IMG/VR virus record: IMGVR_UViG_3300046810_000100
Location: 1 to 64,000 of that record
Source of the DNA: a virus
Length of the DNA stretch: 64,000 nt
Reading direction: 5' to 3' (one strand)
The position numbers and the translations under genes were made by a program. Position 1 is the stretch's first letter. Each line of letters starts with the position of its first letter. The notes under the pieces are model-generated. The model saw only the letters and a program-made list of their open reading frames with translations. It was not told where the DNA came from and ran no database searches. Below are positions 1,019 to 58,685 of this stretch, in pieces.

Positions 1019-1038
1019 CTTATGGCCGGTTGACCGGA

Positions 1039-1656
1039 TTACTGAGCCGGCTCTTCCTCACCGCCAGTTGGTTCTTCAACTGGTGCTTCTGGAGCAGGGA
1101 TGGAAGCCACTACAGCGTCGTGTACACGCAGTGCCATCTCGGTAACGCTGGATTGCACCAGATCAGACTCGCCGATCGACAGCACACTTTCCAGGGTGTT
1201 CAGATCGGTGATTGCTTCATAACGAGCAACCAGTTCTTCTTCAGTCGGAGCAGGAGTTACCGGCTCTGGTTTGAAGTCCAGTTCGATCACGCTGAGCGCA
1301 CGGCTCTTCATGTCGCTGATGGCGCTGACAACGTCGGTGTTGTCGGCAGACTGAGGGGACTGTTCGATCAGCAGAGTCATGTAGGCTTTGGCCAGATCGT
1401 CCAGAGTTTCCAGGCCGGCGATCTGCGACAGCACAGCTTCGACGGTCATCAGTGGAACTTCGATCGGGGTCGGTACGGTCGGGGTAGCTTGAGCGGTCAG
1501 GCGGAAACGCGCCAGCTCGTTCAGTTGATCACCGAAAGGGATCAGGATGTTTTCGAAACGACGTTCGCGTTGACCGACAGCCACGAAGCGTTGGTTGGCC
1601 AGCAGTTGGGCAACTTCGCTGTTGGTAAGGTGTGCATATTTTTCGCTGAGGGACAT
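1039..1656 (-). CDS. Hypothetical protein, Pro/Glu-rich C-terminus
   Basis: 205 residues, not recognised. The N-terminus (MSLSEKYAHLTNSEVAQLL) is helical, the middle is a mostly helical domain interrupted by a Pro/Thr-rich linker near residues 57-67, and the C-terminal 25 residues are rich in Pro and Glu. Codons are strongly biased to C/G endings, as in the capsid gene, which suggests high expression; a virion role is inferred and unproven. The start is supported by a GAGAGAAG stretch just upstream on the minus strand. It has its own terminator and stands alone. Confidence 0.8.
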   Translation of the reverse strand: MSLSEKYAHLTNSEVAQLLANQRFVAVGQRERRFENILIPFGDQLNELARFRLTAQATPTVPTPIEVPLMTVEAVLSQIAGLETLDDLAKAYMTLLIEQSPQSADNTDVVSAISDMKSRALSVIELDFKPEPVTPAPTEEELVARYEAITDLNTLESVLSIGESDLVQSSVTEMALRVHDAVVASIPAPEAPVEEPTGGEEEPAQ

Positions 1657-1740
1657 GGATACTTCTCTCTATTCGATTGAGGAGATAGGAACTCGTGTTT
1701 CCTATAAAAGGCTAGATGCAGAAAAAAATAAACTAAAAGG

Positions 1741-1764
1741 TAGACCCCGGATACCCAGGGTCTA
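1741..1764 (-). terminator. Intrinsic terminator, U-tract type
   Basis: A 7-bp stem (TAGACCC / GGGTCTA, 1741-1747 with 1758-1764). On the minus strand it is followed by CCTTTTAGTTTATTTTTTTC. It ends the gene at 1769-2128 before the next minus gene. Confidence 0.75.
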
Positions 1765-1768
1765 TTAC

Positions 1769-2128
1769 TTAATGTAATGTTCTTTGCTGTAGCGGTTGTG
1801 TAGAGAACACGTAGATTGGGTCGGCTTGCTTGTCATCCTTCCGTTTGAACAGAATGATCCAATCTTTAAACGGTTGATCCTTGTAGAAGGTCGCAAAGGC
1901 TCGTGGGAGCGCTTCCTTAGTACCGACGTACAAGAAGGCATGGTGGTTCTCTAATACAGCTTCAAAGTCGTCTGCCGTGACTACAGCATCTAACTCAGTG
2001 ATCAATTCATCTGGCTTGCGGATTAACTCAGGCCAGTTATCAGTCAAGATCAAGCCTTTGAAATAATCGACGATCTGATCAATAACACTTGCACCCATTG
2101 CAGTAGCGGTGTGTAATTTGAGCAGCAT
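1769..2128 (-). CDS. Hypothetical protein
   Basis: 119 residues, not recognised. It starts MLLKLHTATAMGASVIDQIV and has mixed helix/strand composition with no membrane segment or metal motif. Hairpins flank it on both sides, so it is probably a separate transcription unit. Its downstream terminator has a clear U-tract, unlike most hairpins in the virion region. Confidence 0.75.
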   Translation of the reverse strand: MLLKLHTATAMGASVIDQIVDYFKGLILTDNWPELIRKPDELITELDAVVTADDFEAVLENHHAFLYVGTKEALPRAFATFYKDQPFKDWIILFKRKDDKQADPIYVFSTQPLQQRTLH

Positions 2129-2155
2129 GGCATCACCTATTATTAGACAAAAAAT

Positions 2156-2179
2156 AAAAGGAAGCGTTAGCCTCCTTTT
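2156..2179 (-). terminator. Intrinsic terminator, U-tract type
   Basis: AAAAGGA (2156-2162) pairs with TCCTTTT (2173-2179). On the minus strand the stem is followed by ATTTTTTGTC. It terminates the glycine-zipper gene at 2194-2541. Confidence 0.75.
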
Positions 2180-2193
2180 ACTCTTTATGTTCT

Positions 2194-2541: not shown

Positions 2542-2589
2542 AATGTATTACTCCAGAGATATAAGTGAAAGATATTGATTATCTTTATC

Positions 2590-2610
2590 CCACAAGTAAT
2601 ATAGACTTGA
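2590..2610 (-). promoter_or_regulatory. phiKZ-type early promoter box
   Basis: The minus strand reads TCAAGTCTATATTACTTGTG. It contains TATATTAC, which matches the AT-rich early promoter consensus reported for phiKZ and read by the virion RNA polymerase. It sits about 50 bases before the gene at 2194-2541. Confidence 0.65.
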
Positions 2611-2652
2611 AAAAGAATGTAACTTAAAAAACAAAAAAAATAAACATAGTAA

Positions 2653-2678
2653 CCTAGGAAGGGTTTCCCCCTCCTAGG
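2653..2678 (-). terminator. Hairpin terminator with TATG tail
   Basis: CCTAGGA (2653-2659) pairs with TCCTAGG (2672-2678), and GGG/CCC inside lengthens the stem. On minus it is followed by TTACTATGTTTATTTTTTTTG, so it carries both a TATG element and a U-tract. It ends the gene at 2706-5042. Confidence 0.75.
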
Positions 2679-2686
2679 CCACGCTA

Positions 2687-2706
2687 ATTTAACTGGCCAG
2701 TTAAAT
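2687..2706. repeat. 20-bp perfect palindrome at gene end
   Basis: ATTTAACTGG followed by its exact reverse complement, centred between 2696 and 2697. It overlaps the stop codon of the 2706-5042 gene and lies just inside the terminator hairpin. It could be a protein-binding operator or a second RNA hairpin. Confidence 0.7.
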
Positions 2707-5042
2707 CAACTCAGTGCCAGAAGGCACAGATGTTTACTGCGGGTTACGAAACGCAGAGTAGCTACGTTACGGTCCACAATGGAATAGCTGAACAACCACA
2801 TGTTACCGGACTCGTCAAACTTCAGCAGTTTGTCAGTCGATTCCGACATATAGTTATCGCCCATGGTTACATCAAACCCGTCTTCAATCATCTTGAAGTA
2901 TTCCGGGAACTTGCTGCGCTTGATAACGATAGGAACATCGTTTTCCAAGTGAGAAGGACCGCCACGTTTGTTCATGACGTTGATGTACATCGGACGTGCT
3001 ACAACCAACTCGAGTTCGTGCTTGAGCTTGTCGATTTCGGATTCTTCAGCCTGACCTTTACGGTACGGGTTTTCGAAGTCGAAGATCTTGACTTGCTCGT
3101 TCAGGTAGTTAACCTTCTCGGACTCTACCAGGTACGCACCAGTTTCTGGATCACGTTCCTTGAGGAATTCGAGCAGTGCACGGAAATCGTTGAACGCACT
3201 GGTAACAGACAAATGACGCTTGGCGTTCTTACGGCCTTCGTAGCCAGCACAGTTCACCAGCCAGTCATTGACCAGAGTGGTGTAGCGGGCGTCGATGAAA
3301 TTGATCAGTTCGGAGCTGATCAGGCCTTGATCGTTGTAGCGGGTGATTGCAGCGCAGGCATTCATGAAGCTAACGGTTTCCGTGTTGTCTTTAAACAGGA
3401 ACGGAAGATCGTTATGCAGACGGCGCTTTTCTTCAGGAGTGGCACAAACGTACACATCCCAAGGAACTGCGCAGAAACCCACGGCGCTTTCTTTGGTGAA
3501 CTGGCTAGTCAGACGCTGGTTAACACTGTTGATGGTGGATTCCAGATCAGCCGAAGCTTGCGAAACAACTGGATCCTTAACCACGATTACCGGCAGCGCT
3601 TGTTCCAGCTTGCGAACAGTTTCGATTTCGATGTCGAGACCGGCGCCGCCGTTTACTTCTTCCAGCTCAACTGGCTTCACGACCCAGGTATCTTCCAGGG
3701 ACGGATCTTCCAGCAGTGGCAGGAGTTTCTTTGGATCTGTCAGAACAGTTTGCATATTGAGCCCTTCTGCTCGAACGATGGTGCTGAACCAGCCATTGTC
3801 CACTTCGAGGTCCATGATCACGATACGGAAGCAACCAGGCATAACCGTTTCTTCCAAGCCCATTTCGGAATGCTTGGTGTACGCGTGCTTGATCTTAGTC
3901 CAATCGCTTTCAGGAATAACGTAGTGGTCTTGTTTACCGATGTTGCGGAAGAAACGGTTGAGTTGGAACTCTTTCCGGTTTAGCGGAGTGAGGTTGTTAA
4001 AGTCCTTACGTACTTCATCCCAGTTGCTCATAGGCTCACCTCCCATCGAAAACTCTTTGCGTGGTTGTTGATAAGCAGGTTTATTTTTCTGAGCAGCGTT
4101 ACGGTTAACCATGTCCATGATATCGTGAAACGAATCAGTAGCAGGAGGCAGGTTAGTTTGGTTGTTCTGCTCAAACGGCTGGTGTACATACTCGGACGCA
4201 GGACCGTACAGCATAGCAAAATCTGGACGGGTCGATTGAGGACGCTTGAACTCCAGGTTCGCGTACGGCGAAGTCTGGTTGAACACTTCGAACACTGCGC
4301 TAGTAGCTTCCTTGAAGTTCTCCAAGTTAGCGATGCGCATTTGCAGGCGTTGTGGCAGCCGCAAGCAATACTGCTTACCGGTCGGTGCCTTCATCAGCCA
4401 GTTAATCAGTTCGAAGAACAGGATATTGCGCGTTGCAATAAACGTACAGTTCAAGTATTCCTGCTGGGTCAACTGATCGCGGTTCCCCTGCCGGAGTAAT
4501 TCGATCAGTCCCTTACCGAAGAATGGCGCGCCGTTGATTGCCACAATCCGGGTAAAGTCGGCTTGCTTGTTTACATCGTCGATGAATGCGTTACAAACTT
4601 CATCCACCTGTCCCGCTTCGTTCATGCGAAAGCTTTCACGGGACTTCTTGTACTCTTCGTGTAACGGCCCTGCACGATGGTAGATCTGATAAATGAACTG
4701 TTGCATAGCGGCAGCAACACGCTCGATGTAATAAGCCATCGATTGAGGGTCGTTCTCAGGCGTAACCTTGAGAGCACGAAGTGCTTCGTCTTCGTACAAG
4801 GTAGTCCCGTACTGACCCCAGTTGAAGCCACCACCAGATTGTGTATTGGTAGTGTTGAGGCCAGATTGCAACATGTTGCGAACCATGTCCGCGCCAGACA
4901 TCTGAGGAGTCATGCCACCCATACTTGGGTTCATCATTCCCCCCATACCTGGGCGCGCACCCATCCCTGGTGCGGTACCCATATTGTTATCGGGCAGTTG
5001 TACAGCGGCTGGGTTTCGAGGGCGAAGGATACCGTCGTTCAT
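2706..5042 (-). CDS. Large phage protein with Met/Gly-rich N-terminus
   Basis: 778 residues from the ATG at 5042; an in-frame TTG lies two codons upstream, but GGAG spacing and codon identity favour the ATG. Not recognised. The first 60 residues are low complexity, rich in Met, Gly and Pro (GMGARPGMGGMMNPSMGGM). A long globular part with alternating helix and strand follows, with no obvious catalytic motif. A similar Met/Gly-rich segment is found at the C-terminus of the protein at 54076-55551, which is encoded beside the non-virion RNA polymerase genes. It lies directly downstream of the probable beta N-terminal subunit, separated by 30 bases, so it is likely cotranscribed with it. Confidence 0.85.
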   Translation of the reverse strand: MNDGILRPRNPAAVQLPDNNMGTAPGMGARPGMGGMMNPSMGGMTPQMSGADMVRNMLQSGLNTTNTQSGGGFNWGQYGTTLYEDEALRALKVTPENDPQSMAYYIERVAAAMQQFIYQIYHRAGPLHEEYKKSRESFRMNEAGQVDEVCNAFIDDVNKQADFTRIVAINGAPFFGKGLIELLRQGNRDQLTQQEYLNCTFIATRNILFFELINWLMKAPTGKQYCLRLPQRLQMRIANLENFKEATSAVFEVFNQTSPYANLEFKRPQSTRPDFAMLYGPASEYVHQPFEQNNQTNLPPATDSFHDIMDMVNRNAAQKNKPAYQQPRKEFSMGGEPMSNWDEVRKDFNNLTPLNRKEFQLNRFFRNIGKQDHYVIPESDWTKIKHAYTKHSEMGLEETVMPGCFRIVIMDLEVDNGWFSTIVRAEGLNMQTVLTDPKKLLPLLEDPSLEDTWVVKPVELEEVNGGAGLDIEIETVRKLEQALPVIVVKDPVVSQASADLESTINSVNQRLTSQFTKESAVGFCAVPWDVYVCATPEEKRRLHNDLPFLFKDNTETVSFMNACAAITRYNDQGLISSELINFIDARYTTLVNDWLVNCAGYEGRKNAKRHLSVTSAFNDFRALLEFLKERDPETGAYLVESEKVNYLNEQVKIFDFENPYRKGQAEESEIDKLKHELELVVARPMYINVMNKRGGPSHLENDVPIVIKRSKFPEYFKMIEDGFDVTMGDNYMSESTDKLLKFDESGNMWLFSYSIVDRNVATLRFVTRSKHLCLLALS

Positions 5043-5072
5043 GAACAAATAACTCCTAATGACCCTTATCTT

Positions 5073-6734
5073 TTACCAAGCTTTGGGGTCACGATAGCGC
5101 AAACGTTTCTCTGATTTCTCGTAAAGCTCTTTGAACTGAGGATCCAGTCCAGTGATCTTGCCACCGATCAGGTAAACGCATGGGGTTAAATAACCACGAC
5201 CATCAGGATAGGGTCCAGTTACCCTGAGATAGCTACAAACGAAGGGAAGTGATGCGTGTGCGAAACCGGCGCTGTCGCTGGTATCGAACTCTCCGCGCTT
5301 CTTAGCTTTGGTCGAGTTGGTGTAGACACGGTGCTGAGGCATACAGCCAAGCATGTAATCTACATAAGGGTTGTCAGTCGGTGTCGCTTCTTGAATGAGA
5401 TTGGTCGTGCGAGCATTGTCAATCTCCTTGATGTGAAAGTTGTTAGTCAAGAAACGGGCGACTTTCTTCTGTGATAGTTCACTGTTATTCTTGATCTCGT
5501 GTTTGAACTTGTTGGCGGCTGTAATCAGCTTGTCCAACGTAAACTCCAAACTCGCCAGCTCTTTATAGAACATGGACGCGCGATCAGTCGTTTGTACGAT
5601 TTCACTCCGGTTGGCAATGATGTAGTTGAACAGATCAAACATGTTCGCTACTACGATCGATTGACTGGCGAACTTCTTGATGGAATCTTCATCCAGATAC
5701 TCGTTGATGGAATCGAAGTGTTCATGCATCAAGCGCATGATGTAATCGTTGCTGTCACCGGACTTAACCGAGCAGCGTCCAATAATGAGTTTCCAGTAAT
5801 CCGGGTTATCGATGCAGTCAATGTCGAAGTACGACGACAAGCAGTCGATAATGAACAACAACGAGCAGGCGTATTGCAAACCCATGGAACTGAGTTCTTT
5901 ACGCTTGCTGGATTTGTTGCGTACAGCAATACCCAGATCGTGCGGCAGGAACTCCCCAAGGTGCCGGCTATTGGGAGAACTGCTACGGGTGAAGATTTCC
6001 CAGCGGTCTTTCGGCTGACATTCAGCGACCAGTACGTCTACTGGGCCGATCTCGTAATCGCACTCCCCGTAGATGTCCATGGCTTTACTGAAGCCCATGT
6101 TTGCAAAGATGTACCATCCAAGCAAGGGCATAGGTGTTTTGTTGTCGGTGATCTTCCGAGATTCCGTTGGGCTGTAGAACCGGTTCGCCGCCAGGTTGAT
6201 ATCCACCGTCTTGGACAGCACGTGTCCTGTCTCGGTAAATACCTGATCGAACTTAAAGTGCTCAACCCCAATCTTGAACTTGAAGCCCAAGACCTTAACG
6301 AACAAGGCGTTTTCTTTCGTAACGGGCAACCCACGTTCTGCCAGTACAAGCTGCAGACTGTAGTGAGTATCCCGCAGGAAGATATCGCCATAGATGTCAC
6401 AATACGGCAGCATGACGATCGTACTCATCGGAATGAGCTCGCCAGCTTTGTTACGGTATTCAAACAACAATCGTACCGGGTACAACGTCTCCTTGTGGAT
6501 GTCGAAGAGTTTACCACTGCTATTGACGAGGTTGTCAATGTACTCGCGTGGCGAAACCTTTACGAGATCCCGATAGTAGACCCCTCGTTTCTCGATGCTC
6601 TTGAAGATCATCTTGAGGGCGTTGTTGTAGTAGTGGAATCCGCCTTCAAACTCTTTCTGGTGGAATCCCTCCACGATGGTTTGGTTAAACCGTGGCATTG
6701 ACGCGTCAATTGCCTGTGCCAATTTCAGTGACAT
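5073..6734 (-). CDS. Probable non-virion RNA polymerase beta subunit, N-terminal part (phiKZ gp123-like)
   Basis: 553 residues. The segment around residues 108-140, containing LPYCDIYGDIFLRDTHYSLQ, looks like the region of bacterial beta where the polypeptide crosses the lobe (the GDIPLM/GTFIINGTERV region), but similarity is weak. Support comes from context. In phiKZ the major capsid gene (gp120) lies three genes from gp123, a beta N-terminal subunit of the non-virion polymerase; here the capsid gene, one unknown gene and this gene are in the same order and the length fits. It shares a transcript with the 6745-7884 gene, driven by an early-type box. It could instead be an unrelated replication protein; a profile comparison with beta would settle it. 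Confidence 0.6.
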   Translation of the reverse strand: MSLKLAQAIDASMPRFNQTIVEGFHQKEFEGGFHYYNNALKMIFKSIEKRGVYYRDLVKVSPREYIDNLVNSSGKLFDIHKETLYPVRLLFEYRNKAGELIPMSTIVMLPYCDIYGDIFLRDTHYSLQLVLAERGLPVTKENALFVKVLGFKFKIGVEHFKFDQVFTETGHVLSKTVDINLAANRFYSPTESRKITDNKTPMPLLGWYIFANMGFSKAMDIYGECDYEIGPVDVLVAECQPKDRWEIFTRSSSPNSRHLGEFLPHDLGIAVRNKSSKRKELSSMGLQYACSLLFIIDCLSSYFDIDCIDNPDYWKLIIGRCSVKSGDSNDYIMRLMHEHFDSINEYLDEDSIKKFASQSIVVANMFDLFNYIIANRSEIVQTTDRASMFYKELASLEFTLDKLITAANKFKHEIKNNSELSQKKVARFLTNNFHIKEIDNARTTNLIQEATPTDNPYVDYMLGCMPQHRVYTNSTKAKKRGEFDTSDSAGFAHASLPFVCSYLRVTGPYPDGRGYLTPCVYLIGGKITGLDPQFKELYEKSEKRLRYRDPKAW

Positions 6735-6744
6735 GTACGCTCCC

Positions 6745-7884
6745 TTAAGCTGACGTTAGCAATTTGTACCCCGTAAAAGCAACACCTGCCAGAGTGCCAA
6801 TTGCTTTTGCGAAGTCCCCCCAGGAGTTATGGGCTCCCTTCTGTTTAACAATATCTAAATTGGCTTTAGTAACCGTGTCCTTTATCTTGGATTCGAACTT
6901 GAACATGTCAGCAGTCATCTTGCCGCTGTTCTTAAGTTGATTGGCTTCCATTCGGTGCTCGAGCTTTAGCTGATTGATTTCAGTCTTGTGCGAATCATTC
7001 ACTTTCGTGAGTTCGCCGCTGAGCCTTACGTTATTGGTTTCTGCTTTGACTAAGGCTTCTGACAGGGTGTCAAGCTGTACTTTGAAGGTGCCGTTGTCTT
7101 TTTGCAGATCCTTTATCTTGGCCTCTGCCGCCAAGAAGCGTTCTGTATTGCCTCCTTTATCACACTCAGCTTTGGTTTTGAACAGCCCTAGCTGTTCTAG
7201 TTTTGCATTATCCAAGCTGGCAAAGGTGTAATATTGGGTCTCCCGTGGTTCAATACCGCGAGAAATACCAACATACAATCCGGGTTGTTTGGTCTTGTCA
7301 TAGTCGATCGGGACCTCAGTCGACTTACCCATGACATTCGTGTAGTAGGTATTGGAGACCCGCTGTGGATCGTTCATGTAAATAAAGCAATGCATCCCGC
7401 TGGAGTGCTCTGCTTCGCGGTCGTAGTTGTCGAACAGTTCTTGCAGTGTGTAGCCAGGAGTGTTCAGACAAGGCTTATCGAGGTTTTCCATCCCGATGTA
7501 CATTGTCACGCCCAGCAACTCACTGTGGATCGCATCGTTGCGCTCTACCATGCTTGGACCCAAGTTAATGGTGACCATCAAATCAGTAGGCATCGAGGTG
7601 TGATACTGTTCATTTACTTTCAGCAGCCTAGCACGTTCTTTACTAACCTCCACCAGAATTGTCTTATCCAGTTTAGTCAGTGCCGCACGTTCGTCCACCT
7701 GAAGGTTTTCCAGATAGACCCCTTGGATGCAGATGTGTACTTGATGCTCGGTACGGTAGGTCGGTTGGTTACTGCGCTTAACGATGTAGCTCAGTCCTCC
7801 CTTTACCTTAACGATAATCTCTTTAGCTGAAATATTGGTGATCCGATAATCTAACCGGAAACAATTCATATCAACGCCGTCCAT
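6745..7884 (-). CDS. Hypothetical protein with coiled coil and C-terminal hydrophobic helix
   Basis: 379 residues from the ATG at 7884, chosen because GGAGG lies 7 bases before it; an upstream in-frame GTG at 7896 would overlap that site. The N-terminal 230 residues are beta-rich with short hydrophobic strands. Residues about 245-345 are heptad-like and charged (coiled coil: LSGELTKVND, LKLEHRMEANQLK). The C-terminus has a hydrophobic stretch (IGTLAGVAFTGYKLL) that could be a membrane helix. It begins the operon that continues with the probable beta N-terminal subunit. Membrane anchoring with a cytoplasmic coiled coil is inferred; function is unknown. Confidence 0.8.
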   Translation of the reverse strand: MDGVDMNCFRLDYRITNISAKEIIVKVKGGLSYIVKRSNQPTYRTEHQVHICIQGVYLENLQVDERAALTKLDKTILVEVSKERARLLKVNEQYHTSMPTDLMVTINLGPSMVERNDAIHSELLGVTMYIGMENLDKPCLNTPGYTLQELFDNYDREAEHSSGMHCFIYMNDPQRVSNTYYTNVMGKSTEVPIDYDKTKQPGLYVGISRGIEPRETQYYTFASLDNAKLEQLGLFKTKAECDKGGNTERFLAAEAKIKDLQKDNGTFKVQLDTLSEALVKAETNNVRLSGELTKVNDSHKTEINQLKLEHRMEANQLKNSGKMTADMFKFESKIKDTVTKANLDIVKQKGAHNSWGDFAKAIGTLAGVAFTGYKLLTSA

Positions 7885-7933
7885 CGGATCCTCCACTTGA
7901 CTTTAAGAAGTCATAGTAAATACATAGTCCGAC

Positions 7934-7952
7934 TGATAATGTAGGTTTGAAA
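7934..7952 (-). promoter_or_regulatory. phiKZ-type early promoter box
   Basis: The minus strand reads TTTTCAAACCTACATTATCA, the same box as at 2590, 53632 and 58622. It sits about 50 bases upstream of the ATG at 7884 and would drive 7884, the probable beta N-terminal gene and the 2706-5042 gene. Confidence 0.65.
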
Positions 7953-7989
7953 ATCTTTACTGAAATAACAAAATGCAAAATAGACCCTA

Positions 7990-8021
7990 CCTCCTACCAC
8001 ACCCTAAGGCATGGTAGGAGG
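7990..8021 (-). terminator. Hairpin terminator after the capsid gene
   Basis: CCTCCTACCA (7990-7999) pairs perfectly with TGGTAGGAGG (8012-8021), a 10-bp stem and 12-base loop. On minus the tail is TAGGGTCTATTTTGCATTTTG. It insulates capsid transcription from the early box at 7934. Confidence 0.8.
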
Positions 8022-8103
8022 AGGAATCTACGGCGCTTCCTTTCACTCGTTAGCCTGACTCACCCACCTGGTGATAACTCACCGTAATAGGTGGACGGCA
8101 GGC

Positions 8104-10272
8104 TTACGGGTTTGGGGGAGTGGTGTCGTTGGTATCAACAACGCCTTGAACGCTAACACGCTGAACAGCCAGCTTGGTCAGCAGACCGTTGTCGCCCAGG
8201 AACTCACGCGCATCTTCGATGATCAGCGAGCCGATGATCGGGTTCAGCGGCCAGTGACGGAAGGTCGGCAGGGTCATTACGACACCGAAGTCCTGTTGGT
8301 CACGAGTCACGTTACCTTGAACGAGGATGTTCTCTTTCGAGACATTCACGCCGATGCCGCCCAGCGGGTTGATGAACTCGTTGGTGGAGTTGTTCTTCGG
8401 CACGATCAGGATTTGCCCGATCTGGCTGTCGAAGTTGGTCTCAACCACTTTCATCGGCACGGTAGGGCCGAGGCTACGAGCATCGCCCGAACGCATCAGG
8501 AAGCGGCTCAAGTTCTGGTGAACCACGACGGTCCATTCGATCTTGTCAGTACCGCCGTATTCAGCGATAGCCGCCAGGCCGGACTTGGTGTTCAGCGCGG
8601 AGGTGATGTCGCTGATTTCGTTCAGGAACACAGCAGAGACGTTGTCGAACACGTCCATCGAGTCCATGGACGACACGCGGTCGGCCAGCTTGATGCTGCG
8701 GTTGACAGCAGCCGCGGTAACGTAGTGCTGACCTGGCAGCACGTTGGAACCTTGGTTGTTGCCGACAACTGGAGCGCCGTCGATCGAAGTGATGTACTTC
8801 AAGTGTTCCTGAGCGACGTCGAACGCCTTCTTGGAGCACTGGTTGTTGATCGCGATCGACATCTGCTGGATGGCGAAGTCCAGGGAACCCTGGTTAACGT
8901 CGTCAGCAGAGATTGGGTACTTCACCGACACCGGGCTGTTGCGACGAACGCTCAGACGCTTGTTGGCGTCGAAGACTTCGATGCGGTAGCCGAAGTTGCC
9001 ACGGCTGGTGTTGGACACGTTGAAGCCAGCGTCCAGACCAACTACAGCGCCTTCAGTCATGCTGCGGATCAGAGCTTTCTGAGTGCTGTCAGCGCGAGCA
9101 ACGGAGATGGTGTTGCCGGTAGCGATTTCGCGCAGGGAATGCACGGTCGCTTGGCCGGAAGCAAGACGCAGCTCGTTGGTTTGACGCTGGTAGTTACCGC
9201 TCAGGCTGATGTTCAGCAGAGGCTCGTAACCGGCAGTCTTGAACGATGCGAACAGAGTTTCGCCGATAGCAGCGCCGTCTTTGTTCTGAACCGAGAAGCC
9301 TGGCAGGTCGCGCATGTGCATGTTGATTGCACGGTCGTCGGACGACTGACCTTGGGAGGTCGGACCGAAGGTGTTGTTCGACATCGACTTGGTGTTGACG
9401 AAGAACTTGCCGGCGGTGGCGCCGAGTTTCAGGGTGACAGCTACCGACTTGATGGTGATCGAGTTGCTTTCGATCTCGTCAGTCGAAGTCCAGGCGCGCT
9501 GGCCAGGAGCTTGGCACAGACCCAGCAGGTTTGGCACGGTGCCAGGAACCTTCAGGTACTGAGTGGCGTGCGAGCTACGGCCGTAGGCGTCAGCCTCAGG
9601 GTAGGTAGCGGTGGTCGGCGCGATCAGGGTGTCGTCGACGAAGAACAGACGGGTGTCGTCCTGAGCGTCGTCCGGGTAAACCGGGAACAGGTCCAGGACT
9701 TCGTCCTTGAACATTTCGCCGGTACGCAGCAGGCCGAAGATCGGGCGCAGTTCGGAAGCCGACTGCCAGGCGCTGTTGCCGTAGGCGTAGCTACCGATAC
9801 CAGCGGCACGAACAACCAGGTTTGCACCTTCGTCTTCGTAACGCACGGTGATGGTGGAGAACAGAGCTTCGGCCGCTTCGGTCTGCAGGTGAGACTGAGC
9901 GTTCAGAGTCAGGTTGGCCGCTTTGATGTCGGTCTCGCTGCCCTTGAAGTTCTGCATGGAGAAGCCTTCGTTACCAGCAACGCTGGCGAGGGCTTTACCG
10001 GCTTCTTCGAAAACCTGCATTTCGGCGGAAGGGATGCCTTCACGACCCAGCGATGCGGCGAACGCGTCGTAGGTCTTGCCGGTGACCTTGCCCATCAGGG
10101 TGGTCAGTTGCTGGCTTTCCATCCCGGCAACACCGCCGAGACCTTGTTGGAACGATTCGAACGACTCAGCCCCAACGACGGAGTTGAGCTTTTGGGAACC
10201 CAGGGCTTGCTTGACGGCGTGGAAGAGGTTACCGGTATTCTTCAGCGCCGCATTGACTGTTTTAAAGGCCAT
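8104..10272 (-). CDS. Major capsid protein precursor (phiKZ gp120-like)
   Basis: 722 residues. phiKZ-group major capsid proteins are about this long and lose a long N-terminal propeptide to the prohead protease, which cuts after S/A/G-x-E. This protein has GAE (34-36), GME (50-52), GNE (100-102) and AAE (133-135). Cleavage after AAE would leave a mature chain beginning ALFSTITVRYEDEG, which is likely the mature capsid subunit. The C-terminal two thirds are beta-rich, as expected of the HK97 fold with insertions. Codon use is extremely biased to C/G endings, in line with the most abundant virion protein. The start has AAAGGA upstream. A TATTTTATG box and a 16-bp palindrome lie between it and the next gene. 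Confidence 0.88.
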   Translation of the reverse strand: MAFKTVNAALKNTGNLFHAVKQALGSQKLNSVVGAESFESFQQGLGGVAGMESQQLTTLMGKVTGKTYDAFAASLGREGIPSAEMQVFEEAGKALASVAGNEGFSMQNFKGSETDIKAANLTLNAQSHLQTEAAEALFSTITVRYEDEGANLVVRAAGIGSYAYGNSAWQSASELRPIFGLLRTGEMFKDEVLDLFPVYPDDAQDDTRLFFVDDTLIAPTTATYPEADAYGRSSHATQYLKVPGTVPNLLGLCQAPGQRAWTSTDEIESNSITIKSVAVTLKLGATAGKFFVNTKSMSNNTFGPTSQGQSSDDRAINMHMRDLPGFSVQNKDGAAIGETLFASFKTAGYEPLLNISLSGNYQRQTNELRLASGQATVHSLREIATGNTISVARADSTQKALIRSMTEGAVVGLDAGFNVSNTSRGNFGYRIEVFDANKRLSVRRNSPVSVKYPISADDVNQGSLDFAIQQMSIAINNQCSKKAFDVAQEHLKYITSIDGAPVVGNNQGSNVLPGQHYVTAAAVNRSIKLADRVSSMDSMDVFDNVSAVFLNEISDITSALNTKSGLAAIAEYGGTDKIEWTVVVHQNLSRFLMRSGDARSLGPTVPMKVVETNFDSQIGQILIVPKNNSTNEFINPLGGIGVNVSKENILVQGNVTRDQQDFGVVMTLPTFRHWPLNPIIGSLIIEDAREFLGDNGLLTKLAVQRVSVQGVVDTNDTTPPNP

Positions 10273-10298
10273 GACTCAAATCCTTTACTGAGGATGTT

Positions 10299-10314
10299 AA
10301 CAAATATATTTGTT
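10299..10314. promoter_or_regulatory. 16-bp perfect palindrome in capsid leader
   Basis: AACAAATA followed by its exact reverse complement TATTTGTT. It lies between the promoter-like box (10333-10350) and the capsid start. An imperfect hairpin (TGTGTA/TACACA) sits just upstream of it. It may be an operator or a 5'-leader mRNA stabiliser. Confidence 0.55.
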
Positions 10315-10332
10315 TGTGTAAGTAGCGCTACA

Positions 10333-10350
10333 CATAAAATATAGTGGATT
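10333..10350 (-). promoter_or_regulatory. Candidate promoter of capsid gene (TATTTTATG box)
   Basis: The minus strand reads AATCCACTATATTTTATG. It keeps the early-box core CTATATT but ends TTTTATG, as do the sequences upstream of the head genes starting at 36217 and 39981. phiKZ late promoters are reported to carry a TATG-like motif, so a late promoter is the best guess. Confidence 0.5.
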
Positions 10351-10897
10351 AAGGGTTTTCAATACTAACCAGTTTGTAAACCTCTGCCAGAGTGAATTCA
10401 CCCAGGTTAGGTTTTGGGATTTTGCCGTTGTGAGATTCCATGTATCCCACCTTGGCAAAAACTGTTTCTAGCAATGCGCCAGAGAATGTTTGTGCTTCCA
10501 GTGAGTCCCAGCCGGGTACTTTAGAAGCGTCTTCCCCATTAAATAGAACAATGAGGGTATTCATGCCCGCGTCGAGACAAGCAAAGCTCTTCGTGGACTT
10601 GTAAATCTGGGTTAACGTTTCACTGTCAATGTCATTGAATGAACGCTCAACCATTCCGCCGTTGTAACCTTCCCCGAACAAATGTTTCGGGTCGAGAAGC
10701 GGAACGCCCATCTGTTGAGCAACGACATACTGGAACTTCAGGATGTGCGCTATCTCAGAGAATGTTACTTTCTGATGATATGATGCGAGTTTGGAAACAT
10801 CGCTGAACGGAATAGCTTGACTGACCAGCACGTCGCGCATGGAGCTGGTCAAGAACAAAACACGAAAGGACTTCCCTTGCGGGGTCTTAAGAATCAT
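10349..10897 (-). CDS. Hypothetical protein divergent from the replicative helicase
   Basis: 182 residues, not recognised. It starts MILKTPQGKSFRVLFLTSSM and has alternating short strands and helices, without a signal peptide, membrane helix or metal motif. It is divergently arranged with the DnaB-like helicase gene, only 23 bases apart, and both genes use the same palindromic CTCCTAGGAG as ribosome-binding site. Downstream is the capsid promoter region with no hairpin before it, so its transcript may run into the capsid gene. A small head or replication accessory role is possible; nothing in the sequence decides. Confidence 0.75.
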   Translation of the reverse strand: MILKTPQGKSFRVLFLTSSMRDVLVSQAIPFSDVSKLASYHQKVTFSEIAHILKFQYVVAQQMGVPLLDPKHLFGEGYNGGMVERSFNDIDSETLTQIYKSTKSFACLDAGMNTLIVLFNGEDASKVPGWDSLEAQTFSGALLETVFAKVGYMESHNGKIPKPNLGEFTLAEVYKLVSIENP

Positions 10898-12477: not shown

Positions 12478-12518
12478 TTAATACCCTCCTAGCCTTTGTA
12501 GGGCTAGGAGGGTATTAA
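12478..12518 (+). terminator. Long hairpin terminator with TATAGCCGG tail
   Basis: A 17-bp perfect stem (12478-12494 with 12502-12518) and 7-base loop. It has no U-tract; on plus the tail is TTATAGCCGGTACATG, matching the tails after the other plus-strand genes. Confidence 0.85.
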
Positions 12519-12556
12519 TTATAGCCGGTACATGCTGCAACCGCGTGTAAAGCGTT

Positions 12557-21757: not shown

Positions 21758-21797
21758 CCTATAGCATCCTTCGAAAAAACAAATTGCAGCCATAAAG

Positions 21798-21829
21798 ACT
21801 ACTATCGGGGATTGCTCCCCGATAGTAGT
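21798..21829 (-). terminator. Hairpin terminator with TTTATGGCTGC tail
   Basis: A 13-bp perfect stem (21798-21810 with 21817-21829) and 6-base loop. On minus it is followed immediately by CTTTATGGCTGC and then TTTGTTTTTTC. It ends the gene at 21862-23121. Confidence 0.85.
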
Positions 21830-32067: not shown

Positions 32068-32083
32068 AGCAGCTATAAGCCTA

Positions 32084-32115
32084 CCCCTCCTATCCCCGCA
32101 AAGGGATAGGAGGGG
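32084..32115 (+). terminator. Hairpin terminator with TATGGCCGG tail
   Basis: A 13-bp perfect stem (32084-32096 with 32103-32115). On plus the tail is ATATGGCCGGTACAGC; on minus it is TAGGCTTATAGCTGC. Neither side has a U-tract. It lies between the convergent genes ending at 32067 and 32132. Confidence 0.88.
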
Positions 32116-32131
32116 ATATGGCCGGTACAGC

Positions 32132-34783: not shown

Positions 34784-34807
34784 GGGTAGTACTCCTGGGG
34801 ATAGTGG

Positions 34808-36217: not shown

Positions 36218-36251
36218 TAATGAGTACTCCTCTATTTTTAGTACTGGGGCA

Positions 36252-36283
36252 CTATTAGTATAGCGCTAAAAGCGGGCATAAAA
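36252..36283 (-). promoter_or_regulatory. Promoter region of the metalloprotease operon
   Basis: Minus strand: TTTTATG (36283-36277) then CTATACTAATAG near 36263-36252, about 35-65 bases before the ATG at 36217. The first part matches the late-type TTTTATG box, the second resembles the early box. Which one is used is not decided. Confidence 0.45.
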
Positions 36284-36297
36284 TGCAGGGTATACCG

Positions 36298-38148: not shown

Positions 38149-38157
38149 GCAGCCATA

Positions 38158-38194
38158 AACCCTACCCACTCCGTTGTCGGGAGTGGGTAGGGTT
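38158..38194. terminator. 15-bp hairpin terminator between convergent genes
   Basis: AACCCTACCCACTCC (38158-38172) pairs perfectly with 38180-38194. On minus the tail is TATGGCTGC within 2 bases of the stem; on plus it is ATTCACGCTGC. It ends the polymerase gene and the inner-body gene at 38211. Confidence 0.85.
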
Positions 38195-45395: not shown

Positions 45396-45418
45396 CAAAA
45401 AAATAAACAACCTAAGCC

Positions 45419-45446
45419 CCCTAACAGCCCTCACAGGCTGTTAGGG
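45419..45446 (+). terminator. Hairpin terminator with TATGGCTGG tail
   Basis: CCCTAACAGCC (45419-45429) pairs perfectly with GGCTGTTAGGG (45436-45446). On plus the tail is ACGCTATGGCTGGTACAGG with no U-tract; on minus it is GGCTTAGGTTGTTTATTTTTTTG. Confidence 0.85.
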
Positions 45447-45465
45447 ACGCTATGGCTGGTACAGG

Positions 45466-46005
45466 TCATAGTGGAGCAAAGAGCGGCTCTAAACCGATAA
45501 GAGGGGCGCCCGGGGGTAACACCGGAAAGGAGAATGAAGTGTCAGGATAGATGGTGAACATCACCCTGTCCGTTAGATGCATCGAGGCATGCTCAAACCG
45601 CTTAGAGAACTCAGGCTGTTCGAGCACACTCTTGATTGCCATGATTTCGCTGATGTCATTGAAGTCACGGATCGAATCTACGATCATCCCCAGCTTGATG
45701 CAGATTGCTTCGCGATACTGCGGGCAATACTCCACTAGCTCGTCACCCGGTAACTGCACCCCGTCCTCTTTGTTCTTGTCGTGCAAGATGCTCAACAAGT
45801 ACTCGACAGAGCTCTCGAACTGAGACTCAGGGTCGTCACAATAATACAACGGGTCATCGCTGATTGGCCATTCAAATGGTTTGGTCATCTGAATAACTAC
45901 GAAGAGTCCCTCAATGAAGATGAGGTCCAAGAACTCCAGAGCAATATCTGAGTAGAGTTCTTCCCTAACTTGTGGATCGACCTTTATAACGAAGGTAGCC
46001 GCCAT
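45466..46005 (-). CDS. Hypothetical protein
   Basis: 179 residues, not recognised. It starts MAATFVIKVDPQVREELYS and has a helical, acidic body and a Pro-rich end (FPVLPPGAPLIGLEPLF). It is the last gene of the operon headed by the non-virion beta C-terminal gene at 53560. In phiKZ, genes 76-79 between gp75 and gp80 occupy the same place. Confidence 0.7.
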   Translation of the reverse strand: MAATFVIKVDPQVREELYSDIALEFLDLIFIEGLFVVIQMTKPFEWPISDDPLYYCDDPESQFESSVEYLLSILHDKNKEDGVQLPGDELVEYCPQYREAICIKLGMIVDSIRDFNDISEIMAIKSVLEQPEFSKRFEHASMHLTDRVMFTIYPDTSFSFPVLPPGAPLIGLEPLFAPL

Positions 46006-53687: not shown

Positions 53688-54017
53688 ATGCCGATCCCGA
53701 ATAATGAGTCGGACAGTGATAAGACACTCTTCTACACTGATCGTTATAAAACCCTGGTTCGTTCTGAGAAGGAGATCCTGCTCAGAGGTGCTTCGGTAGT
53801 ACCGTTTACTGACCTGAGCATGGTGTATGCTTTCCGTACAGACTTCTACCGACTGCTGCGGACAATGAAGGTACCGGCCCATTTGCGTTGGACTGTTGCC
53901 TATCTTAATGATGTCATTGATCCCAACCAGGACATCTCGGAAATGCGTTCCTTCTTACAGGTTGACGAAACCGATCTGTATAAAGCCATTGCGCGAAATA
54001 ACACCACACAAGGCTAA
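53688..54017 (+). CDS. Small hypothetical protein
   Basis: 109 residues, not recognised. It starts MPIPNNESDSDKTLFYTDRY and has a compact helical domain with a Ser/Asp-rich start. AAGG is about 9 bases before the ATG. It is the only plus gene between the non-virion polymerase gene and a minus block. Divergent from the beta gene by 127 bases, whose gap holds the early box on minus. It ends in a strong hairpin. Confidence 0.7.
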   Translation: MPIPNNESDSDKTLFYTDRYKTLVRSEKEILLRGASVVPFTDLSMVYAFRTDFYRLLRTMKVPAHLRWTVAYLNDVIDPNQDISEMRSFLQVDETDLYKAIARNNTTQG

Positions 54018-54031
54018 AAAATAAAAGGTAA

Positions 54032-54061
54032 TAGCAATCTGGGGAGTACCCCAGATTGCTA
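54032..54061 (+). terminator. 13-bp hairpin terminator with TATAGCCGC tail
   Basis: TAGCAATCTGGGG (54032-54044) pairs perfectly with 54049-54061. On plus the tail is GCCTTATAGCCGC without U-tract. On minus it is ATTACCTTTTATTTTTTAG, so the minus side looks like an ordinary intrinsic terminator for the 54076 gene. Confidence 0.85.
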
Positions 54062-54075
54062 GCCTTATAGCCGCT

Positions 54076-55551
54076 TTAGAACGTAGTTGTCGCTGCGGCG
54101 CCAGTGAAGTCAACCATACCACCACCTGCCGAAGAAGCAGTAGTAGGCGATTGCGGCATCATCATCATGCCACCCATGCCGTTTGGCATCATCATCATTT
54201 GCTGTGGCATCATGTTCATCATGCCCATGTTACCCATGCCGCCCATACCACCCATGCCAGGCATGCCCATACCCATGCCCATCATGTTGCCACCCATCAT
54301 GTTGTTGTTCTCGATGCGGCCCAGTACGTTAGCGTAGCGGGTGCACTGATACACAACCTGACCACCGGTGATCGTGTTGATCGCGTAGTGGAGGACCTTA
54401 TTGTTCATGTAGTCAATTTCGGTCTTCAGGTACTTGTCACCTGGCTGCATCTGTGGAACTGTGGTGTCGTAGTCGCCGACATTCACATTACCACCCAGGT
54501 TAGGCTGGTTGTTGTTTTGGTTGTTGTTGACCTGCGGCTGCTGGTTCTGGTTCTGCTGGGGACGATTAACCGAGAACATGTTCGAGTTACTTGGCACGTT
54601 CTGTTGAGACGTGTCGTTTTCGTCGTTCGTGTTGTGGCTGTTGTAGTCCAGCATTGGAACCTGACGGTACCAGTCGCCCAGATCGTCCATGTGTTCCATC
54701 CAGCCGGTATCCAGCGGATAGAGACCCATCTTGTCGAAGTCAGCACGGAAGGTGTTCTGAACTCGATTCAACTGGTCAGCGATCTCGGCGTAAGCGCCGA
54801 GGTACGAGATCAAACGCGCGGCCACTTGGCTGGTGGATTCGTATTCGATATCGTCAGGCGATTGCACGATTGGCAGAATGCACTGGAACAGATGTTGCGC
54901 CAGCTTCAGAGCCCCACGGGATACGCTGAAGTTGTTCAGTTCCAGTTGCTGGTTGTCAGACTGACCTTCGCTACGCGCCAGACGCTTGGTGATCTCGTTG
55001 TAGAACGGGAACTGCGCCTTGGTTTTGTAGTAGACCTTCTCGCCGGTCTTGGTACTACGCCCGCCACCCTTGGTAACCTTAAAGTGGATGAAACGGTTGT
55101 CGAGCCCGTTGTCTTCCAGTTCTACGTTCATACGAGCGAACAGAGCACTCAGTTCGTCACGCACAGTACGCTTGGTACCCTTGAGTGGTTCCAGCATGTC
55201 CAGGATGTCCTGACGCCACGAACCCTTTGGCTTCTGGCTGGCAATGCCAAACAGAACCGCCGGATAGTTGCGGAAGGTATCCAGCAACTTGGCCGTGGTC
55301 ATCTTGCGGATGATCTTGAACACCTCGGTTTCTTTCGACGTGATGTTCTCACACGCCGGGTGGAAGAACGCCTTGTCCATGCAGTTACCGTCCAGCACTT
55401 CGGACAGCGGCAGGTACAGATCGTGCTCGTCGATGCGTACCGGGTATTCTTCCTTCTGGTTGTTCATAGTGAACAGGATTTTGCCATCGTCCTTGATCAC
55501 GCCGCCCCACGACATCAGCATGGATCGATAGAGCTTGTTCAATTCGTTCAT
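54076..55551 (-). CDS. Phage protein with Met/Gly-rich C-terminal tail (phiKZ gp69/70 position)
   Basis: 491 residues, not recognised. An N-terminal helical domain of about 300 residues is followed by an Asn/Gln-rich linker (QQNQNQQPQVNNNQNNNQ), then a small domain and a long Met/Gly tail (MGGNMMGMGMGMPGMGGMGG and more). Such low-complexity tails often drive self-association or phase separation; a similar N-terminal run is in the 2706-5042 protein. AAGGA precedes the ATG. Lies between gp68-like and the beta C-terminal gene, in the operon that starts at 58586. Function unknown. Confidence 0.75.
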   Translation of the reverse strand: MNELNKLYRSMLMSWGGVIKDDGKILFTMNNQKEEYPVRIDEHDLYLPLSEVLDGNCMDKAFFHPACENITSKETEVFKIIRKMTTAKLLDTFRNYPAVLFGIASQKPKGSWRQDILDMLEPLKGTKRTVRDELSALFARMNVELEDNGLDNRFIHFKVTKGGGRSTKTGEKVYYKTKAQFPFYNEITKRLARSEGQSDNQQLELNNFSVSRGALKLAQHLFQCILPIVQSPDDIEYESTSQVAARLISYLGAYAEIADQLNRVQNTFRADFDKMGLYPLDTGWMEHMDDLGDWYRQVPMLDYNSHNTNDENDTSQQNVPSNSNMFSVNRPQQNQNQQPQVNNNQNNNQPNLGGNVNVGDYDTTVPQMQPGDKYLKTEIDYMNNKVLHYAINTITGGQVVYQCTRYANVLGRIENNNMMGGNMMGMGMGMPGMGGMGGMGNMGMMNMMPQQMMMMPNGMGGMMMMPQSPTTASSAGGGMVDFTGAAATTTF

Positions 55552-55561
55552 TTGTCAGTCC

Positions 55562-56995: not shown

Positions 56996-57029
56996 GTGTG
57001 CTACTACCTCGTGAATGCTTAAACCCTGA

Positions 57030-58586
57030 TTAGGAATTGACCTGCCGGACCAATTCCATGAACTCGTTCTTTACTTCGATGCTGATGTCGATGCCAAACA
57101 AAGCACCTTGCTTCACCAAAGCATATACTTCCAGATCATCCAACACCCCGTATTCCAAGTTGGATCTCCAGATGCCGTTGCTGAACTTCTCAAGGAATTC
57201 ATTGGCGGCTACCAGGGCTTCGTTAAATGAACGCCCTTCGTTGTTACGTGTTTGGATGTCACAGATAGATGCCAAGAACTCCTTGTCATCCTCATTCAGT
57301 TTCATGCCGTCAGGATAGGTACGAATCCCAGTTGGATCTTTAATAGCACCCAGTACAGTCGGCAGATACTTGAAACCCATTTCCGCCAGCCTTACTTGCG
57401 CAAGACAGATGGCCGCCATCAACTGATCGTAACCAGCTGCTTCATAGATGAAGGGCGAGACCTTCCACGCAAAGGTCAGTTGCAGCAGCTTGAGGATATG
57501 ATCTTCGAGTTCGAAGTCCCAGTTAGGCGACAGGTTGTCGTAGATCTTCTCAACCAGTAATGGCTGATTCACCTTCAAAGCGATACAGGCGTACTTGAAC
57601 CGATCTTTGTACCGAGGGTTATCTTCTTCGTCAAACAGACCGAAGCTGAAGAACTCTGCGCTGACCGCTTCATCAGACGGACGAACATCTTCGCTAATCT
57701 GATACTTGTCATAGATCGAACGCTTGTCGTCATCCGACTCACTCGGGTAATCCCGTTTAGTGAAGTTGGTGCCGACCGATTCGTGTTGCTTAACCGAAGC
57801 GTTAATTGCGGTAGCAATGTTCTTGCCTTCTTCGGTTTCAGGGATTGCGGCACAACATAAACGATTGAACACGGTGTTAAACAATACCTTGTCCACAAAG
57901 TTCTCAACACTGACCACGCTATCTGGCTGTGCTGGGATCCCGCGTTTGTTGAAAGCGAAGTCCACGTAGGTCTTCAGCTTATGCCAACCCGGCATGCCTG
58001 TGATGGTTGGGTTGTCCTTGATCAGGTCACCGCATACCAGATCACTGAAACCAGAACCCATGATGTCTTCGAACCGGAACATCAGGCCAAAGATGATTGG
58101 GTAGATAGACCGCACCACGAATGCTAGTTTCACCAGCTCTACGTAATCGTGATCCATGATCGTGGTTTGTTCTGGATAGTCGCCTTTGCTGGCGGCTTCG
58201 CTCAGATCTTTAGGGATCTGTAGGTACTTCGAATACTGGATGAACGAGCAGTACTTGTAGATGTTGATGAAATCCAAGATCTCGTTGATGACCGGCTTCA
58301 GTTCTGCCAAGTCTTCGTTGTAGTCTTGGAACTTCCCTACCTCCACAATGTTCCACGCTTTCTGGTACAGGGAGAACAGTTCCAGTTGCTGATCATGATC
58401 CATGGTGCCTTGGATATAATCGTTCAAGCAATCAAACAGGTTGTACGTCGCTTCGTTACGATCACGAATTGCACGTTCCAGCTTGATACCGGCTTCCCCA
58501 TTGAACTTCAAAGTCTGTTCGTTGAAAGTGACCAGAATACTCTCGAACTTCTTGCTGGAGGTTCGGCGAATCGTAAGTTCTAACAT
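57030..58586 (-). CDS. Probable non-virion RNA polymerase accessory subunit (phiKZ gp68-like)
   Basis: 518 residues from the ATG at 58586, with GGAG 9 bases upstream; a TTG at 58601 is in frame but sits inside that site. Helical, acidic, no recognised motifs. The assignment comes from order: in phiKZ gp68 precedes gp69, gp70 and gp71-73, and here this gene precedes 55562, 54076 and the beta C-terminal gene. phiKZ gp68 is part of the non-virion polymerase and has no bacterial counterpart; size is similar. An early-type box lies 36 bases upstream. Not proven from sequence alone. Confidence 0.6.
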   Translation of the reverse strand: MLELTIRRTSSKKFESILVTFNEQTLKFNGEAGIKLERAIRDRNEATYNLFDCLNDYIQGTMDHDQQLELFSLYQKAWNIVEVGKFQDYNEDLAELKPVINEILDFINIYKYCSFIQYSKYLQIPKDLSEAASKGDYPEQTTIMDHDYVELVKLAFVVRSIYPIIFGLMFRFEDIMGSGFSDLVCGDLIKDNPTITGMPGWHKLKTYVDFAFNKRGIPAQPDSVVSVENFVDKVLFNTVFNRLCCAAIPETEEGKNIATAINASVKQHESVGTNFTKRDYPSESDDDKRSIYDKYQISEDVRPSDEAVSAEFFSFGLFDEEDNPRYKDRFKYACIALKVNQPLLVEKIYDNLSPNWDFELEDHILKLLQLTFAWKVSPFIYEAAGYDQLMAAICLAQVRLAEMGFKYLPTVLGAIKDPTGIRTYPDGMKLNEDDKEFLASICDIQTRNNEGRSFNEALVAANEFLEKFSNGIWRSNLEYGVLDDLEVYALVKQGALFGIDISIEVKNEFMELVRQVNS

Positions 58587-58621
58587 GTAATCAATCTCCA
58601 AACATATTTGATGTCACTAAC

Positions 58622-58642
58622 CTAATAATGTAGGCTTTAAAT
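58622..58642 (-). promoter_or_regulatory. phiKZ-type early promoter box
   Basis: The minus strand reads AATTTAAAGCCTACATTATTAG, matching the boxes at 7934 and 53632. It lies about 36 bases before the gp68-like ATG at 58586. Confidence 0.65.
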
Positions 58643-58685
58643 TCTTTTAGCGTCACCAAAAAACAGTTATCAGCCATAGGGGTAT

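Follow-up and report, generated by a model that had tools for sequence, protein, structure and literature searches.

A TATRGCYG element behind hairpins at gene ends in an EL-group relative of phiKZ: a candidate terminator without a U-tract

Background

Multi-subunit RNA polymerases are generally thought to need a weak U-rich hybrid for release at intrinsic terminators. A fixed word takes part in the class II termination signal of T7 RNA polymerase, a single-subunit enzyme for which no hairpin is needed there, and a fixed word also marks the DNA uptake sequences in terminators, which sit within the arms of the stem and function in uptake. Here we describe such a word, the element TATRGCYG, which directly follows hairpins at gene ends in a stretch of 64,000 nucleotides of viral DNA (the window; positions 1 to 64,000 of the 164,248-base virus record IMGVR_UViG_3300046810_000100) and which is probably part of a terminator lacking a U-tract.

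In phiKZ, as described in the available parts of three papers (PMC4666361, PMC12809450, PMC10612078), there are two phage polymerases, a virion type for early genes and a non-virion type for late promoters marked by TATG. An earlier interpretation of the window made from its letters (the sequence-only reading) had named TATG as part of phiKZ late promoters, in agreement with the accessible text of two of these papers, in which the non-virion polymerase recognizes TATG through gp123 (PMC4666361, PMC12809450).

The phage was placed by searches with two window proteins. Both a 994-residue protein and the DnaB-like helicase have their best matches in EL-group phages (vB_PQ1, EL, and their close relatives), at 54-55% and about 45-46%, respectively. 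Because of these matches, and of the multi-subunit RNA polymerase genes encoded in the window, which include a gp123 homologue (Table 1), the window phage is classed as an EL-group relative of phiKZ. A DNA similarity search of a phage collection with positions 29083-38148 of the window gave zero matches.

A fixed word behind hairpin stems

Hairpins were sought in intergenic regions with a home-made finder (at least 9 Watson-Crick pairs, at most 1 mismatch) that misses weak hairpins, and genes were called with a simple home-made codon-usage script that missed small genes. A hairpin strand was counted as gene ending if a gene on the same strand ends no more than 150 nt before the hairpin, and the element was scored as hairpin linked at -6 to +12 from the stem. 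The search patterns were picked after the record itself had been inspected.

All nine copies named in the sequence-only reading were found, at 1021, 12520, 32117, 45451, and 54066 on the plus strand and at 58678, 38157, 32077, and 21794 on the minus strand; the coordinates first given for them were off by 1 to 3 bases in places. Each lies just past a stem, as had been claimed, at offsets of 0 to +6. The window contains 12 copies of TATRGCYG, and the three that are not directly behind stems are found at 48872 (plus), 27543 (minus), and 21039 (minus). The element is present on 9/19 gene-ending hairpin strands of the window versus 0/9 of the others (0.034 expected; binomial P = 1.6e-20). A comparison with chance over the whole record, which the sequence-only reading had proposed, gives the same result, with 16/42 gene-ending strands versus 0/22 others (0.08 expected; P = 4e-33). 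Column-permuted words (n = 600) had a mean of 0.06 matches, and the sole one to reach 8, YATGGCTR, itself matches TATGGCTG.

It is the placement of TATRGCYG, and only its placement, that is special. No genome-wide excess of the 8-mer was seen, with 27 copies versus 22 for the reversed word, so that a genome-wide repeat was rejected as an explanation. Of these 27 copies, 16 are hairpin linked according to the finder, 10 lie within genes, and the last, at 74479 on the minus strand, makes a seventeenth hairpin copy, since by eye it follows an imperfect hairpin overlooked by the finder. The hairpins at unit ends are stable and G+C rich (the nine strands that were folded have RNA fold z values between -3.3 and -7.0).

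Among 41 instances in three phages (the window phage and its relatives G001 and G005, at about 70% identity), the offset from the stem is between -5 and +9 and most often +3. The exact words are TATGGCTG (19), TATAGCTG (10), TATGGCCG (6), and TATAGCCG (6), so the fourth base is G in 25/41 and A in 16/41. The element is followed by C in 27 instances and then by T in 36. A further extension to GGTACA, which had been called frequent, occurs in a minority only (3/9 copies in the window and 4/17 in the record); it is absent in loci L016 and L018 and a minority elsewhere, and it was dropped as a part of the core.

Two alternatives bear on this placement. The word could simply belong to the base of the stem, or A/T-rich stem feet could produce it by chance, as TATA lies within the stem in some hairpins and the two copies at two-sided sites can partly pair. 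However, the start lies at or past the stem end in 34/41 copies, one-sided sites lack a partner word, and words made by permutation are rare at these positions, which makes this explanation extremely improbable. The element could also be a double-stranded DNA site at which a phage or host protein blocks the polymerase. A fixed, asymmetric word in one orientation relative to transcription would fit such a block, but an upstream hairpin and an offset that varies from -5 to +9 would not be expected of it, and we regard it as quite unlikely.

Strand and unit distribution of the element and of U-tracts

Strands were labeled early according to a promoter matrix in three phages, nine annotated promoters in EL, and counts of a shorter motif elsewhere. 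The matrix, built on strict matches in the window phage's record, G001, and G005, finds early-promoter-like sites (TTTTCARRYCTAYATTAY) on one strand only in each of them (15/15, on minus, in the record; 19/19 in G001; 19/19 in G005). Strict matches to the early motif are likewise on one strand in G009 (9/9), phiKZ (8/8), and RisingSun (12/12). They are few in FishSpeaker (1), 201phi2-1 (2), and SPN3US (1, on the strand opposite its TATATTAC majority).

In eight phages, U-tracts follow 109/303 gene-ending hairpins on the early strand versus 2/140 on the other. Taken singly, six of these phages show the split at P < 0.05; the values for phiKZ and FishSpeaker are 0.17 and 0.066. With 201phi2-1 (9/24 early versus 0/8 other), the total for nine phages comes to 118/327 versus 2/148. 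In AR9, U-tracts are scarce on both strands (1/16 and 2/9). The U-tracts of these phages lie mostly 4-20 nt past the stem.

The element shows the reverse distribution, being commoner on the strand without early promoters and in units without one. On the late strand of the record, for example, it is found on 9/16 gene-ending hairpin strands, and U-tracts are found on 0/16. On the early strand of the three phages, units that have an early promoter show a U-tract only in 22 cases and the element in 3, versus 13 and 17, respectively, among units without such a promoter (Fisher P = 7e-4); 30 further units have neither signal. The sequence-only reading had overlooked the hairpins with U-tracts that also occur in the window, on the minus strand only, as well as the presence of the core word in phiKZ itself. 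Its claim of little or no U-tract after the element holds for seven of the nine copies, and the other two are followed by a U-tract at +18 nt (21794, minus) and +21 nt (58678, minus) past the stem.

At convergent junctions, one hairpin can be shared by both kinds of signal. One side bears the element and the opposite side a U-tract at 983, 45419, 54032, and 154451, and the element flanks the hairpin on either side at 32084 and 131345. At the first three, a single hairpin serves two convergent genes, with the element on plus and the U-tract 6-11 nt away on minus. In 201phi2-1, both signals occur on 5/24 early-strand ends.

These distributions can be compared with what would be expected of an RNA processing or 3'-end-stabilizing site, at which a nuclease would cut at or near UAURGCYG while the hairpin guards the end. 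The single orientation of the element and its place 3' of hairpins, on strands where genes end, would suit such a site, and sequence alone does not separate termination from processing. But processing leaves both the early-strand confinement of U-tracts and the commonness of the element elsewhere unexplained, and it gives no reason for convergent genes to need a cut instead of a stop. We therefore consider it unlikely.

Orientation and the promoter alternative

A phiKZ-type late promoter sited behind terminators is a further alternative. The phiKZ late promoter is TATG, with G as +1, and is required in vitro according to the part of the source available (PMC4666361), and 25/41 element copies start with TATG. 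Most copies, however, would fire antisense, as the sequence-only reading had already argued: an opposite-strand gene is faced by 13/16 hairpin copies in the record, 9/12 in G001, and 11/14 in G005, with a same-strand gene faced by 3/16 in the record. The element is also rare where a promoter should be, with TATRGC at most 80 nt upstream of late-strand first genes in only 1/10, 3/11, and 2/15 cases, and the 16/41 copies with A in the fourth place would have A at the +1 position.

Fourteen gp123 residues are named for the TATG pocket of phiKZ in the part of PMC12809450 that was available (section 2.5), and the window homologue matches 4/14 of them (F151, H331, S334, and Q466) in an alignment that, at 21% identity, may be wrong in places. 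The oligonucleotides of the characterized phiKZ promoter p119L (PMC7618050, available in part), as read here, continue as TATGTAGAC and not as TATGCYG. Given the antisense orientation, the rarity upstream of late first genes, and the pocket mismatch, a promoter behind terminators was rejected and is very unlikely.

In a search for a late-promoter motif upstream of late-strand first genes in six phages, the scores for the record, G005, and RisingSun were lower than the best among eight shuffles, and those for G001 and G009 exceeded the best shuffle by at most 1.0; EL gave a weak C[TG]tTA[AC]GG (29.7 versus 24.3).

Conservation among close relatives

The 994-residue protein, whose gene precedes the 32084 junction, was used to search viral contigs and yielded 20 loci. 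The junction was aligned for the window and eight relatives at about 70% identity; L015 and L029, in which the protein is identical to that of the window, were excluded, as were more distant loci. The arrangement CRGCYATA-hairpin-TATRGCYG is present in 9/9 aligned phages, while the stem sequence, the loop, and the spacer vary. Relatives at 54-59% identity have looser words, such as TTATGCCG.

The association with gene ends is repeated in two relatives, with the element on 12/57 gene-ending strands versus 0/35 others in one and 13/59 versus 1/39 in the other. At orthologous gene ends (E, element; U, U-tract), no swap between E and U was seen in three comparisons, and either signal can be absent in one partner. 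The 27 pairs of the record and G001 comprise 8 E-E, 5 U-U, 1 EU-EU, 1 EU-E, 4 E-none, 1 U-none, 1 none-U, and 6 none-none. The 29 pairs of the record and G005 comprise 8 E-E, 7 U-U, 1 EU-EU, 1 EU-E, 4 E-none, 1 U-none, 1 none-E, 1 none-U, and 5 none-none. Among the 45 pairs of G001 and G005, there are 10 E-E, 10 U-U, 2 EU-EU, 1 U-none, and 22 none-none.

Reach into other phages

Regions after hairpins were searched de novo with a simple zero-or-one-motif-per-sequence model, scored by log-likelihood ratio against 8 to 12 dinucleotide shuffles each. On the strand without early promoters, the search returns TATNGCYG in the record (49.7; best of 12 shuffles, 28.4), [TG]TAYG[CA]CG in a relative at 54% identity (42.7; best shuffle, 30.4), and TATGc[TC]GT in phiKZ (45.7; best of 10 shuffles, 25.4). 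In 201phi2-1, the plus strand, which carries the early motif, gives TATgC[CT]g[TC] (45.4; best of 8 shuffles, 26.9) and the minus strand gives TAT[GT]T[CT]GT (31.1; best shuffle, 24.1). EL has a different word, [GC][GT]TTAT (GTTAT-like), after hairpins on the strand without early promoters.

At convergent hairpins of phiKZ, TATGYY is found on 7/8 and on both strands in 5 of these; in 201phi2-1, it is found on 15/32 ending versus 6/26 non-ending strands. In both phages, these counts are to be read with the caution that TAT often lies partly within the stem. A search of related jumbo phages, proposed in the sequence-only reading, thus recovers the core word in phiKZ and 201phi2-1 and not in FishSpeaker, RisingSun, SPN3US, or AR9, and by these comparisons the element belongs to some lineages rather than to the group as a whole. 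The 13 convergent hairpins of SPN3US mostly have T-rich tracts on both sides and the TATG word on none, unlike those of phiKZ, 201phi2-1, and the window phage.

A proposed terminator read by the non-virion polymerase

From the word, its placement, orientation, and conservation, and the split between strands and units, all of which are observed, we infer termination, the polymerase that reads the signal, and a pause. It is reasonably probable, though well short of assured, that hairpin and element form a terminator without a U-tract that is read by the non-virion RNA polymerase, with the U-tract class serving the virion polymerase. In such a terminator, a long G+C-rich hairpin would precede, by no more than a few bases, TATRGCYG in the window phage or TATGCYG(T/Y) in phiKZ and 201phi2-1. 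The word would occupy the place of the U-tract, so that at most copies it would form the RNA-DNA hybrid once the hairpin folds, and if the RNA ended at the last bases of the word, the stem would lie directly behind the enzyme. Because the word does not make a weak hybrid, release would not occur by rU-dA pairing alone, and the simplest replacement would be a pause read from the sequence: the non-virion polymerase would read the word and stop near its end, at a pyrimidine followed by G, and the hairpin would afterwards extract the RNA.

The second class, a hairpin with a U-tract 0-21 nt on, would end units on the early-promoter strand transcribed by the virion polymerase, and gene ends read by both enzymes could bear both signals. 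That the two signals serve two phage enzymes is most likely because phiKZ infection resists rifampicin, an inhibitor of the host enzyme, according to the portion of the source available (PMC4666361). The sequence-only reading had preferred termination or processing for the non-virion polymerase to a promoter. Termination gains from the orientation, the two-sided convergent junctions, the conservation despite changing stems, and the opposite strand distribution of U-tracts; the link to the polymerase is indirect and comes from the split by early-promoter units.

Since TATG is common to the late promoter and the terminators of phiKZ, the non-virion polymerase might even use the same word to start and to stop: its promoter pocket would re-engage non-template TATG during elongation, causing a promoter-like pause, and the hairpin would then end the transcript. 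This idea is offered tentatively and is unlikely. If it holds, lineages would exchange promoter and terminator words jointly.

Several results weigh against a late-polymerase terminator of this kind. Neither signal is found on 14/42 gene-ending strands of the record (7/16 late and 7/26 early), and the strict word is on only 5/20 late-strand ends in each of G001 and G005. For either of these two genomes alone, the late strand does not return the word de novo, although the fixed word is enriched there (G001, 36.6 versus a shuffle at 30.4, for another word; G005, 29.4 versus 30.9). They are also relatives of the window phage, and counts over the three clade genomes are not independent. In phiKZ, TATGYY is on 22/53 ending versus 12/53 non-ending strands (P = 0.03). 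The late strands of FishSpeaker and RisingSun have no motif above shuffles, and the element is absent in SPN3US (TATGYY on 0/51) and lacking in AR9 (1/25). SPN3US is also without a strand split, with U-tracts on 21/35 and 7/16. U-tracts away from hairpins, too, are commoner on the early strand (137 versus 72 summed over eight phages; higher on the early strand in 7/8). Because of this weaker bias, the U-tract asymmetry is partly background, and late strands have no enrichment rather than active avoidance. A last point concerns the consensus elemental pause, G-10Y-1G+1 as given in the available parts of two papers (PMC7876045, PMC6336406): TATRGCYG and the phiKZ and 201phi2-1 motifs resemble it in ending with pyrimidine-G but differ in that G at -10 is unenriched (12/35; 6/41 copies without upstream bases were dropped). 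One base further upstream, G is found in 24/35 copies, mostly as a stem base.

Comparison with described signals

The gene ends described here resemble Rho-independent bacterial terminators in having a G+C-rich hairpin just past the stop codon, often common to convergent genes, and a fixed feature after the stem. They differ in that a G/C-containing word stands in place of the U-tract directly after the stem, and the U-tracts of these phages are mostly some distance past the stem and almost only on one strand. Like the T7 class II signal, the element is a fixed word rather than a U-tract-dependent stop, but it is hairpin linked in 16/27 copies of the record. The DNA uptake sequences share with it the association of a fixed word with terminator hairpins; the element, in contrast, lies mostly after the stem and in one orientation. 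It differs from the phiKZ late promoter in standing behind hairpins, mostly facing opposite-strand genes, in continuing with YYG or GCYG, and in having R in the fourth place in the window phage.

A model for starting and stopping at the same word is the sigma70-dependent promoter-like pausing of Escherichia coli, in which, as the part of the source available describes it, a promoter word met after initiation can halt the polymerase (PMC7876045). That pausing differs from the signal proposed here in acting near promoters, through backtracked pauses, and without termination. Among the matches listed in a literature search that did not cover subscription papers on phiKZ and EL transcription, no title or opening of an abstract mentions the element.

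If the proposed terminator is real, it would be a second solution to termination, with a hairpin and a G/C-containing word for the late polymerase and U-tracts kept for the early polymerase, and one genome would provide a natural comparison of the two. In nucleus-forming phages, whose late promoters are difficult to locate, the sequence by itself would then assign each unit to its polymerase. The claim is testable with phiKZ and its purified polymerase.

Features of the window

The coordinates of the features are collected in Table 1.

Table 1. Hairpins, element copies, U-tracts, and related features of the window
Feature	Position	Strand	Basis
Putative terminator hairpin between convergent genes 15-962(+) / 1039-1656(-)	983..1020	+	RNA fold z -5.8
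Element TATGGCCG, offset 0	1021..1028	+	sequence
U-tract, 11 nt past hairpin 983..1020, early strand	966..971	-	sequence
Putative terminator hairpin after DnaB-like helicase gene 10921-12453(+)	12478..12518	+	hairpin finder, RNA fold
Element TATAGCCG, offset +1	12520..12527	+	sequence
Putative terminator hairpin after internal head protein gene 21862-23121(-)	21798..21829	-	hairpin finder, RNA fold
Element TATGGCTG, offset +3; U-tract at +18	21787..21794	-	sequence
Hairpin between convergent genes 29131-32067(+) / 32132-32890(-), element on both sides	32084..32115	.	finder, fold, alignment
Element TATGGCCG, offset +1; consensus in 9/9 aligned phages	32117..32124	+	sequence, alignment
Element TATAGCTG, offset +6; consensus in 9/9 aligned phages	32070..32077	-	sequence, alignment
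Hairpin between convergent genes 36283-38148(+) / 38211-39293(-)	38158..38194	-	hairpin finder, RNA fold
Element TATGGCTG, offset 0; plus side without element	38150..38157	-	sequence
Hairpin between convergent genes 44100-45395(+) / 45466-46005(-)	45419..45446	+	hairpin finder, RNA fold
Element TATGGCTG, offset +4	45451..45458	+	sequence
U-tract, 11 nt past hairpin 45419..45446, early strand	45399..45407	-	sequence
Hairpin between convergent genes 53688-54017(+) / 54076-55551(-)	54032..54061	+	hairpin finder, RNA fold
Element TATAGCCG, offset +4	54066..54073	+	sequence
U-tract, 6 nt past hairpin 54032..54061; ends unit with early-promoter-like site at 58644	54017..54025	-	sequence
Hairpin after gene 58738-59451(-)	58685..58713	-	hairpin finder, RNA fold
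Element TATGGCTG, offset +6; U-tract at +21	58671..58678	-	sequence
U-tract past hairpin 2653-2678; ends run 2706-10897(-) with gp123 homologue and early-promoter-like site 7955	2636..2644	-	sequence
Early-promoter-like site	7929..7955	-	matrix
Early-promoter-like site	2589..2615	-	matrix
Early-promoter-like site	58618..58644	-	matrix
Homologue of phiKZ gp123 (beta-like subunit, non-virion RNA polymerase)	5073..6734	-	protein alignment, 21% identity

In the record of the related phage vB_PQ1 (PQ516283.1, positions 50001-100000), polymerase and helicase genes are annotated in many fragments, along with many short "CRISPR" repeat calls, and both features suggest a poor assembly.

The divergent intergenic region 36218-36282, before the DNA polymerase gene, contains a palindrome-like stretch, CTATTAGTATAG (CGCTATnnnTATAGCG in several relatives), followed by GGCATAAAATG. 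The stretch is a candidate divergent late promoter or operator and can be made out by eye in relatives with as little as 54% identity.

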